A DNA stretch of 31,135 nt from a virus. The stretch is taken from the IMG/VR virus record IMGVR_UViG_3300040801_002783, positions 1 through 31,135 of that record, one strand, 5' to 3'. This document shows positions 20,687 through 31,047 of this stretch, one piece after another. The translations under genes and the position numbers were made by a program. Every line of letters begins with the position of its first letter. Positions within the stretch are counted from its first letter, which is position 1. The notes beneath the pieces were generated by a model. The model saw nothing but the letters and a program-made list of their open reading frames with translations. It did not search any database and was not told the origin of the DNA.

Positions 20687-20754
20687 GTGTTGGTGTTGTA
20701 AACTTTATAACCTACTCAAAAATTGTAAATAGTCTAACTTTTGATCTTGACTCA

Positions 20755-20979
20755 TTAAGCTGGCCTTATCTGGTAAAAATAAAAGTCTTGGATTGTGTTA
20801 CCCTCGACAACTGTGTCGAACCCCTGGTAGTCTTCACCTTCTAAGGCAAATTCATTATTGATAATAGTTTTTTTAAACCACCTTGAAATTTGGTTTTTAG
20901 ATAGACCTAAAAAAGTATACAAATTACGTGCTGTAACTTTGTTATCTTGATTTGGTTGGATTAGTTGTAAGTTATTCAT
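20755..20979 (-). CDS. AntA/AntB-type antirepressor, short form, 74 aa
   Basis: Has the AntA/AntB domain pattern: KVTARNLYTFLGLSKNQISRWFKKTI, then FALEGEDYQGF and a final strand (TIQDFYFYQ). Full-length antirepressors add a C-terminal domain, which is absent, so this is a short form or a remnant. The ATG at 20979 was chosen over the TTG 9 nt upstream. Known antirepressors inactivate phage repressors during induction or affect immunity. A structured leader (20984-21039) stands immediately before it. Confidence 0.7.
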   Translation of the reverse strand: MNNLQLIQPNQDNKVTARNLYTFLGLSKNQISRWFKKTIINNEFALEGEDYQGFDTVVEGNTIQDFYFYQIRPA

Positions 20980-20983
20980 AAAA

Positions 20984-21039
20984 AACAAAATCTCGGGCTG
21001 TGTAACGAAAACTGCACCCGAGATAATGTTCGTTACACA
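20984..21039 (-). promoter_or_regulatory. Overlapping-hairpin leader (attenuator or pseudoknot) before the antirepressor
   Basis: Two perfect inverted repeats interlock. Stem 1 is ATCTCGGG (20990-20997) with CCCGAGAT (21017-21024), 8 bp. Stem 2 is TGTGTAACGAA (20999-21009) with TTCGTTACACA (21029-21039), 11 bp. On the minus transcript stem 1 forms last and is followed by TTTTGTTTTTT up to the ATG, so it is an intrinsic-terminator shape. Stem 2 uses bases from its loop and flank, so the two can form a pseudoknot or compete. At DNA level they could also be operator arms. Confidence 0.75.
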
Positions 21040-21076
21040 TTTAAGCAGTTGTCGTGACTATACAATACTTAGTATT

Positions 21077-21556
21077 TTATGTTTTGTCAATAAAAAAAGG
21101 ATAGTGAATAACAAAAAAGACAGTGTGCATGATCCAAGTGTGTCTAAACTCTTCATACAAGTCTCTTACTTCCTCTCTTTTTTTACCTCTCAAATTGCCA
21201 TAGATTAAATTAGGTGGGATCAAATAGTCTACGTGTTCTACATTTAATTGCTGTTCAGTCTGATTTGCCATTGCTAAAATTCTCAGATCTCTTTTATGCT
21301 GTTTAAGCATGTCGTTGTGATAACAACCATCAATTTCAAGAATTAGATTTTTTTCAGGAACATAAATATCAGCCCTTAGGGGATGTGATTTTTGACTCGG
21401 TGTTTGATAATTAGGTATAACTAACTGTTGTACAACTTCCAAACCTCGGTTCTCTATTGCTCTTGTCGTCTCATCTTCCAACTTAGAAATGTGCTTTTGT
21501 TTTCTAAGCTTTTCTAGATTGGGTTTTTCGGTGATTTTACAGCTCCATTCTTGCAT
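21077..21556 (-). CDS. PD-(D/E)XK (Vsr/DUF559-like) endonuclease, 159 aa
   Basis: Probable DNA nuclease. The core reads PLRADIYVPEKNLILEIDGCYHND, followed by KQHKRDLRILAM: Asp63 and the Glu74-x-Asp76 strand fit the PD-(D/E)XK active site, with His/Asn and Lys nearby as in Vsr/DUF559-like proteins. Glu30 on the first helix may be a further ligand. Roles could include DNA processing near packaging, host DNA breakdown or mobility. It precedes the antirepressor leader and is followed upstream by two tiny membrane-protein genes. Confidence 0.75.
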   Translation of the reverse strand: MQEWSCKITEKPNLEKLRKQKHISKLEDETTRAIENRGLEVVQQLVIPNYQTPSQKSHPLRADIYVPEKNLILEIDGCYHNDMLKQHKRDLRILAMANQTEQQLNVEHVDYLIPPNLIYGNLRGKKREEVRDLYEEFRHTWIMHTVFFVIHYPFFIDKT

Positions 21557-29400: not shown

Positions 29401-30312
29401 TTAATTTTTGGCTTTGGTCAAAGCTTGCTTTTCGATGGCAACAAAAAAAGCAACTTGTTGCTCGAGTGGTGTTTTCATTACTGATTTAAAAAGACTGGGA
29501 TTCAAGACGGGGTAATCACTGAGCTTAATACCTCCATTTTGAAGACGTTTTTTTATATTCTTAGTAAGTTCCTCTATACGTGGGTCAATCTCTTCTCTTT
29601 GTGGCTCTTGTAAAGCCTCGTCCATGCTCAACAAATTGCCGTAAGCTTGACTGTCGCTGTCGCTGTCTTCTTTAGCTTTTTCAACATTTTCTTGATAAAC
29701 AACCTCACTTTCTTTTGCTTTTACCCAGTTAGGTTTCTTGTGTTTTTTGTTGTAATCAGTCAGGTAGCCAACAATAGAAGTTGTTTTGGCCTTCGGATAA
29801 TCACTTAAGTAAGTTTCTATAGCTAGTTCTAGTTGCTCATCAGTTAAATCTGGAAAGTCAATAGCCCTCCACTTTGGAAAGTTAGGATTATTTTTAAAAT
29901 CTTGAATTTTTTGAGTGCTTTCTAACTCTTTATTACTTAATAATTTTTTGTTTAAATCTTTTTTATTATAGTCTATCCCATTTTGGGAGGTGCTGGTTTT
30001 AGGAGGTGCTGGTTTTGGTGTCCCCTGTTCTGGTATGTCATACAAAATATATTCCTGACCTGCTAGTTGATTGTCTTTGTATTTTGCTCTGTAGCCTAAA
30101 TAGCCAAGATCGTGGAGATCTCTTAATCCTGATCTTACAGCTTTTTCACCTTCTTTTGTTTCTTTGGCTATTCTCCAGACTGCAAAATCCCAACCTTCAG
30201 GTTTAGAATTTATATACATCCAAAGGCCTTTAGCCTTGAATGTTAAATTAACGTGGTTAATTATGGTGTTAGGAACTTGAGTCCATCCATTTGTAAATTG
30301 TTTTTTTAGCAT
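29401..30312 (-). CDS. HTH replication-initiation-like protein, 303 aa
   Basis: Likely origin-binding or replisome-organiser protein. The N-terminal winged helix (1-95) shows GWTQVPNTIINHVNLTFKAKGLWMYINSKPEGWDFAVWRIAKETKEGEKAVRSGLRDLHDLGYL, a pattern common to phage replication proteins of the DnaD/ReP type. A Pro-rich linker (about 97-110) follows; the C-terminal half is helical and charged, with an LTDEQLELAIETYLSDYPKAKTTSIVGYL segment that may be the helicase-loader region. No phage polymerase or helicase is present, so it probably recruits host enzymes. The mRNA leader (30313-30465) is structured. Confidence 0.75.
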   Translation of the reverse strand: MLKKQFTNGWTQVPNTIINHVNLTFKAKGLWMYINSKPEGWDFAVWRIAKETKEGEKAVRSGLRDLHDLGYLGYRAKYKDNQLAGQEYILYDIPEQGTPKPAPPKTSTSQNGIDYNKKDLNKKLLSNKELESTQKIQDFKNNPNFPKWRAIDFPDLTDEQLELAIETYLSDYPKAKTTSIVGYLTDYNKKHKKPNWVKAKESEVVYQENVEKAKEDSDSDSQAYGNLLSMDEALQEPQREEIDPRIEELTKNIKKRLQNGGIKLSDYPVLNPSLFKSVMKTPLEQQVAFFVAIEKQALTKAKN

Positions 30313-30333
30313 ATATAAAAATATCCAGGCACT

Positions 30334-30360
30334 AAAAAACCCAGCCTGTCTTGGGCGGGT
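30334..30360 (-). promoter_or_regulatory. Leader terminator with competing hairpin, upstream of replication gene
   Basis: On the minus strand ACCCGCC pairs with GGC-T-GGGT (one bulged base) and is followed by six T's (30339-30334), an intrinsic-terminator shape 22 nt before the ATG. Its 3' arm can instead pair CAGGC (30348-30344) with GCCTG (30330-30326), which would break the terminator. This is an attenuator-like arrangement. Confidence 0.65.
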
Positions 30361-30399
30361 CTAAAATTCAGATAAGTTTCAGCTTTATCAAGAATTATA

Positions 30400-30460
30400 G
30401 ACTTTCCAGGACTTTTTAGGTCACTGGTTCTTGATGGGTGCTGAAAAACCCTGGAAAATC
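30400..30460 (-). promoter_or_regulatory. Long RNA hairpin in the replication leader
   Basis: Arms 30400-30420 and 30441-30460. In the minus-strand RNA the arms pair at 19 of 20 positions because plus-strand mismatches (C-A and A-C) become G-U pairs; on the plus strand the same hairpin has three more mismatches. This strand preference points to selection on the minus transcript. Confidence 0.7.
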
Positions 30461-30471
30461 TATTCTTTTTA

Positions 30472-30500
30472 AATTTAAAATATATTTTTGAATTAGTCAA
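30472..30500 (-). promoter_or_regulatory. Promoter for the replication operon
   Basis: TTGACT (30500-30495), 17 bp spacer, TAAATT (30477-30472). The start would be near 30465, leaving a leader of about 150 nt before 30312. Divergent from the promoter at 30526-30554; between them TGTCAA (30508-30513) and TTGACA (30526-30531) form an inverted pair. Confidence 0.6.
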
Positions 30501-31019: not shown

Positions 31020-31047
31020 TTGACAATTGTCAAATATTATATAAATA
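31020..31047 (+). promoter_or_regulatory. Plus-strand promoter with perfect palindrome, leaderless
   Basis: TTGACAATTGTCAA (31020-31033) is a perfect 14 bp palindrome that includes the -35 box. A TAAATA box (31042-31047) follows with 16 bp spacing, and 8 nt further lies the ATG at 31056. Confidence 0.55.

Follow-up and report, generated by a model that had tools for sequence, protein, structure and literature searches.

The virus record IMGVR_UViG_3300040801_002783 of IMG/VR was analyzed over 31,135 bases, and this whole stretch of DNA is referred to here as the window. The nearest relatives of its large terminase, at about 40%, are the terminases of Bacteroides, Cellulophaga, Flavobacterium and Polaribacter phages, and its genes possess A-rich start contexts and no Shine-Dalgarno sequences. 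Taken together, the affinity of the terminase and the nature of the gene starts indicate that the host belongs to the Bacteroidota. All late genes of the window are carried on the minus strand. The leader described here sits between an ORF that resembles HNH endonucleases (21077-21556) and an ORF with an AntA domain, designated antA (Table 1). Downstream of antA are a ParB-like gene and then TerS- and TerL-like genes.

The product of antA is a putative antirepressor, a function assigned by homology only. It is shorter than its relatives, which are 229-242 aa in the alignment. The ORF stops early, and the remaining residues resembling the AntA domain are found in the next frame, extending to about 20706 (20706-20979, minus strand). 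The gene is thus truncated, and it may be a remnant or contain a sequencing error. The switch upstream of it may nowadays govern a remnant.

Table 1. Features of the antA leader and the gene that follows it, in order of the minus-strand transcript.
Feature	Position	Strand	Basis or remark
Promoter-like element, TTGACA-17-TATTGT	21062-21090	-	Consensus scan, 10/12 matches; predicted start about 21055
Segment A (ACGACAACUGC), first antisense segment, predicted RNA 5' end	21045-21055	-	Pairs with 21005-21015, 10/11
Hairpin H1, AAUGU(GUAACGA)ACAUU, loop is the core of segment B	21025-21041	-	Prefix folding, -2.3 kcal/mol
Possible 22-aa upstream ORF (MCNEHYLGCSFRYTARDFVFYE) across the switch	20972-21040	-	Stop overlaps antA start; sequence reading
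Segment B (UGUGUAACGAA), second antisense segment	21029-21039	-	Pairs perfectly with 20999-21009 (11 pairs)
Terminator 5' arm C (AUCUCGGG)	21017-21024	-	Forms 8 bp with 20990-20997 in a hairpin of -14.4 kcal/mol
Loop of the terminator, covered by A' at 21005-21015 and B' at 20999-21009	20998-21016	-	A'/B' overlap of 5 nt
Terminator 3' arm C' (CCCGAGAU)	20990-20997	-	Pairs with 21017-21024
U-run TTTTGTTTTTT	20980-20990	-	Abuts the antA ATG, which starts at 20979
antA, AntA-domain ORF, 74 aa	20755-20979	-	Pfam AntA match of 29.5 bits (cut-off 27)

An initial annotation of this region had drawn attention to two interlocking inverted repeats before the antirepressor gene, and both are present and perfect. 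The 8-bp repeat joins ATCTCGGG (20990-20997) to CCCGAGAT (21017-21024), and the 11-bp repeat, which interlocks with it, joins TGTGTAACGAA (20999-21009) to TTCGTTACACA (21029-21039). As the annotation also described, the distal 8-bp arm on the minus strand leads directly into TTTTGTTTTTT (20990-20980), with the ATG of antA at 20979. The antA start is thus preceded by a U-run where the window's other genes are A-rich. A third helix, together with a hairpin in the 5' part of the leader and the parallel with C4 RNA, was absent from that first description. This helix, A, joins ACGACAACTGC (21045-21055) to GCAGTTTTCGT (21005-21015) with 10 of 11 pairs and crosses stems B and C; as RNA, it pairs ACGACAACUGC (21055-21045) with GCAGUUUUCGU (21015-21005). 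All three helices are mutually crossing, and segments A and B each complement the loop of terminator C. Read along the RNA, the elements are A B C A' B' C', then UUUUGUUUUUU, and then the antA AUG.

The -10 of the promoter-like element ends 6 nt upstream of segment A, so the RNA would start with A, at about 21055. Two further promoters of the form TTGACA-17-TATAAT/TACAAT lie in intergenic regions of the window. At the sequence level the leader has the features of an attenuator, namely a terminator hairpin and a U-run between a promoter-like element and a gene, with A/B exclusive with C. The 22-aa upstream ORF that spans these elements may be a chance occurrence.

No other repeat of the window spanning up to 60 nt is as long as the 11-bp one, but alone it is ordinary, since a simulated window is expected to contain 0.45 of them. 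None of 60 simulated 31-kb windows contained an interlocked pair whose arms add up to 19, the best sum being 17. The stacking energy of the crossing pair (-39.3) was reached by none of 2000 dinucleotide shuffles (best shuffle, -32.2), and that of the crossing triple (-56.1) was likewise reached by 0 of 2000 (best shuffle, -36.7). Pairing of segment B is significant against shuffled upstream sequence (p = 0.006), and none of 23 upstream regions from other loci pairs as well as the B helix of the window, which has an energy of -18.7 kcal/mol. The leader folds at -22.6 kcal/mol (z = -3.2) into a structure in which C is extended with part of the U-run. When growing prefixes are folded, the best structure is A, next B, and next C with the U-run. 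A general scan for crossing helices that allowed G-U pairs and long spans had a high background, and for this reason no claim is made for single crossing-helix matches elsewhere.

The 8-bp and 11-bp stems had also been proposed to form an H-type pseudoknot, a suggestion that their geometry does not favor. A single base (20998) separates B' from C', and this one crossing nucleotide would need to span the 11-bp stem B. By the general rules of pseudoknot geometry, crossing an 11-bp groove with 1 nt is infeasible, while the 6-7 nt available to A and C are feasible. Helices A and C, whose H-type pseudoknot would have 0-1 nt separating the stems and 6-7 nt crossing, are therefore the better candidate. 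On these geometric grounds, B and C are best viewed as alternatives, and A and C may coexist.

Searches for relatives of the leader sequence gave no match. Only the low-complexity edge or antA coding sequence was matched by blastn against phages and plasmids, by exact arm patterns in IMG/VR, and by blastn over all collected loci and 396 genomes of one order. At loose thresholds (E up to 10, 20700-21300), Rfam gave no match, riboswitches, C4 and isrK included. When trans targets of the leader were sought elsewhere in the phage, the longest complement was 11 nt and of the poly-A type. Because no relatives of the leader sequence were found, its architecture was compared instead. A separate idea, that of an attenuator of the late operon, was rejected because relatives of the terminase have no consistent interlocking leader before the terminase.

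Loci with antA genes were collected by two AntA protein searches across many phages, and a few were added by genome searches. There were 75 distinct antA leaders, 24 of which possess, no more than 55 nt from the start codon, a hairpin of -10 kcal/mol or below with a U-run. Pairing was measured as the best helix between the hairpin interior and the 80 nt upstream, and native leaders were compared with swapped loci. For these 24 leaders, which were selected by criteria fixed after examples had been seen and whose test is incompletely independent because some of them are related, the mean pairing energy was -14.7 kcal/mol for native and -10.9 for swapped combinations (Mann-Whitney p = 4e-8), and Fisher's method over shuffles gave 5e-8. 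An earlier and looser survey, which included hairpins without a U-run, had yielded weak single-locus values and was replaced by the stricter criteria. The control consisted of 75 terminator-like hairpins located ahead of other ORFs in these loci, whose means were -11.5 for native and -10.9 for swapped combinations (p = 0.28). Several of the strongest outliers in the control (L171, L167 and L186) were small ORFs shortly upstream of antA, an arrangement of leader, small ORF and antA like the c4-icd-ant order of P1. Since these outliers belong to leaders of the antA type, the control errs on the safe side.

The recurring architecture extends to the details of the loops. In 19 of the 24 antA leaders, a hairpin loop contains the upstream segment, as it does in the window with AAUGU(GUAACGA)ACAUU. 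In 14 leaders, for which the 7-mers were picked by eye, differing 7-nt loop segments are complementary to the terminator loop of the same leader, with one G-G mismatch in 98 positions. In about ten leaders, TATATTTG, the Bacteroidota -7 box, is found 3-15 nt upstream of the segment. These comparisons support the earlier proposal that alternative RNA structures, including a terminator, decide the transcription of antA, in that relatives retain the RNA pairing as well as the terminator and its U-run. Upstream of a 134-aa protein with no Pfam match, L036:424-521 shows the same architecture, with CATCTCACA as the loop and TGTGAGATG in that of the terminator.

Six leaders (L126, L178, L181, L188, L192 and L194) can be aligned and have in common H1, a long outer stem and an inner hairpin. 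Compensatory changes are found in 20 of their 27 predicted pairs. The co-variation that the initial annotation had recommended as a check is thus seen in these leaders; for the window leader itself, no sequence relative was found. A covariance model built from the six, R1, matches a leader outside the training set (L125, E 3.5e-5). It also matches L181:751-865 (E 9e-7), before a gene (866-1564) with Phage_pRha and ANT(KilAC) domains. This Rha/KilAC gene belongs to an antirepressor family other than antA, and the same phage has two antA genes. R1 matches neither the window leader nor the C4 RNA of P1, and the window is therefore not a sequence member of the six-leader subfamily. A search of 396 genomes with R1, run without a positive control, gave no match.

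The leader resembles the C4 RNAs of P1 and P7 (RF01695, RF03163) in its order of promoter, targets, hairpin with complementary loops, (small ORF) and antirepressor. The targets are close to the transcript's 5' end, two segments are paired, and specificity is given by the letters of the loops (PMC5320573, PMC8198154). In P1, the order is promoter, a1, b1, C4 RNA, a2, b2, icd and ant1; within C4, a hairpin loop carries b', and the junction of a closed stem carries a'. The C4 loops of P1 bind targets close to the ribosome-binding site, and the RNA is excised by RNase P (PMC5320573). Similarly, the window leader is directly upstream of an antirepressor gene on the same strand and ends at its ATG, and two of its segments complement the same transcript, with 10 of 11 pairs for A/A' and 11 of 11 for B/B'. 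However, A' and B' overlap in the window, whereas they are separate sites in P1 and in the alignable leaders. The latter repeat the P1 order: first a1, which occupies a hairpin loop, then b1, and then a closed stem whose inner hairpin loop carries b', with a' after it. In contrast to C4, the window hairpin is also an intrinsic terminator abutting antA, with its U-run beside the antirepressor start. While the 3' end of the P1 RNA, a free molecule of about 77 nt that acts in trans, is made by RNase P, that of the window RNA would arise from termination.

The C4 model RF01695 gave no match at the gathering score in either the window or its relatives, while P1 itself scores 68.8 bits. For a second target of the a2 b2 type at the antA start, the best pairing in the window was -7.7 kcal/mol, and 20 of 23 swapped regions were equal or better. 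Across the leader set, a second target near the antA start was likewise not supported (p = 0.54). Because neither a match to the model nor a second target was found, the window element is placed outside the Rfam C4 family. A C4-like leader at L115:1299-1465 precedes an antA whose start (ATGCCAAACAACAGTCT) is a perfect 16-nt target of the terminator loop, like a2 of P1.

Other phage RNAs share parts of this arrangement. IsrK of the Salmonella prophage Gifsy-1 controls the antirepressor anrP through orf45 and alternative structures (PMC4825925). Like the window leader, IsrK (RF01394) combines a short leader running to a terminator, readthrough to an antirepressor, alternative structures and an upstream ORF (PMC4825925). 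IsrK differs in activating translation in trans, the two have no sequence match, and an orf45-like role of the window upstream ORF is only putative. The isrK model (RF01394) has no match in the window. The a1b1 region of P1 (L205:2231-2312) scores 35 bits against isrK (E 6e-6), below the cut-off of 50, which suggests that IsrK and the C4 target leader are related.

In attenuation of the pT181/pIP501 type, which acts on replication genes, antisense pairing selects among leader structures, one of which is a terminator. The window leader is similar in having alternative structures that include a terminator and in the prospect that antisense pairing chooses between them. The antisense RNA of those plasmids comes from the opposite strand, whereas that of the window comes from the same strand and transcript. 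The sar RNA of P22 is a phage antisense RNA that silences the antirepressor ant at translation initiation. It is therefore also a case of a phage RNA silencing an antirepressor, but there is no terminator switch in the ant leader as described (PMC12197685). Two other Rfam families were encountered near antA genes. The antA leader at L202:1869-1959 (plus strand) matches sRNA-Xcc1 (RF02221) with 54.2 bits against a cut-off of 53. This RNA is known upstream of symE in integron cassettes (PMC12444791), and it may be a C4-like leader RNA. Matches to a FopS-like sRNA (RF04319) at L010:3358-3437 and L022:3858-3937, both on the minus strand, score 41.3 bits against a cut-off of 56. Their 5' part is strongly conserved, near the antA of a Chryseobacterium prophage.

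Overall, the leader is a real and significant RNA element with a well-supported RNA logic, and it is a C4-like variant. Its anatomy, its improbability, the recurrence of the architecture with changed letters and retained pairing, and the covariation in the alignable subset are established. The window leader is probably a compact C4-like antisense attenuator that controls antA. The following scheme adds what we infer, namely that the promoter is used, that transcription terminates in vivo, which way the switch turns, and that the RNA acts in trans. Transcription would begin at A, and A and B would be copied with the core of B held in a small hairpin loop. Hairpin C, with its loop complementary to A and B, would be copied next, followed by the U-run up to the antA start codon. 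If C is undisturbed, transcription would end just before antA, and an RNA of ~75 nt would be released. Should the loop instead be bound by A or B of its own nascent transcript, C would be hindered and readthrough into antA would follow. By analogy with the C4 RNA of P1, the free loop of the released RNA would occupy A/B of new transcripts and lead to their termination. Such action in trans would keep the antirepressor off in a cell already carrying the phage, an immunity of the P1 type.

A simpler possibility is that hairpin C is a plain intrinsic terminator for the transcript of the upstream HNH endonuclease, with the interlocking being incidental and antA a decayed passenger. The HNH-like ORF ends at 21077, just upstream, and C with its U-run makes a good terminator. 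The antA gene is truncated and does not possess the A-rich start context of the other genes. A terminator of this kind has no need of A and B, and yet both complement its loop to an extent reached by 0 of 2000 shuffles. Moreover, pairing between loop and upstream sequence characterizes antA leaders but not terminators at large, and the stretch from the HNH stop to the hairpin contains a promoter-like sequence. This explanation is accordingly judged unlikely. Somewhat less credit is given to a translational switch like that of IsrK, in which the 22-aa upstream ORF would govern mainly the translation of antA and not its transcription. This ORF covers the entire switch and ends over the antA ATG, and the lowest-energy fold pairs the U-run beside the ATG; in addition, IsrK of Gifsy-1 provides a precedent in its control of anrP through orf45 (PMC4825925). 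Nevertheless, it is not unlikely that an upstream ORF this long would occur, and the U-run, with its end at the ATG, better suits a terminator.

Perfect symmetric arms near a promoter could be DNA operator sites for a repressor or antirepressor, as phage regulators bind palindromes and the window contains others, such as TTGACAATTGTCAA at 31020-31033. On this explanation, relatives would keep the arms and lose the T-run or the RNA pairing, which the initial annotation had named as the outcome that would speak against its proposal. The reverse was seen, in that the letters of the arms change completely while the pairing stays. The relatives retain complementarity and the U-run rather than letters, and use G-U pairs. 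The arm also recurs elsewhere in the window no more often than by chance (6 matches with at most 2 mismatches vs 10 expected), and the arm centers are 27-30 bp apart, with 19-bp spacers and interleaved arms. An operator is thus very unlikely. The prospect of a ligand-binding riboswitch or pseudoknot aptamer is more doubtful still, even though A and C can be drawn as an H-type pseudoknot. There is no conserved unpaired core, and the letters of the segments differ at every locus. The selection between conformations by a ligand that had been suggested initially found no evidence, with no match to an Rfam riboswitch at E up to 10.

Published descriptions of C4 RNA come from Proteobacteria and the phages that infect them (PMC2864571, PMC5320573), and a literature search found no report of it in Bacteroidota. 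If the architecture works as proposed for the compact attenuator, RNA immunity based on antirepressor leaders would be far more widespread than the Rfam model shows. It would also represent a same-strand form of antisense attenuation, with the failed transcript acting as the repressor. Furthermore, specificity would reside in a loop of 7-11 nt that is readable from sequence, so predictions of cross-immunity between prophages would be testable. A broader and more tentative proposal, which we regard as possible without favoring it, is that phages of Bacteroidota and other hosts widely use a self-feeding immunity RNA. Every antirepressor leader terminated prematurely would serve as the antisense RNA that drives the next one to terminate, the few letters of the loop would be an immunity code determining which phages silence one another's antirepressors, and the window would contain a minimal version with both recognition segments in one terminator loop.

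Additional regulatory elements were observed in the window. A second structured leader (30312-30480, minus strand; z = -3.1) lies directly before a gene resembling replication initiators. Its competing helices are AUAGAUUUUCCAGG.../...CCUGGAAAGUCUAU, UUUCAGC/GCUGAAA and AUCAAGAA/UUCUUGAU. Just upstream of the ATG are two hairpins that resemble terminators, overlap each other and carry U-runs. The palindrome TTGACAATTGTCAA (31020-31033) and two promoters that share AACTCTTGACAAAAGTTAATAGTT (28693 and 26220) are likely repressor sites.
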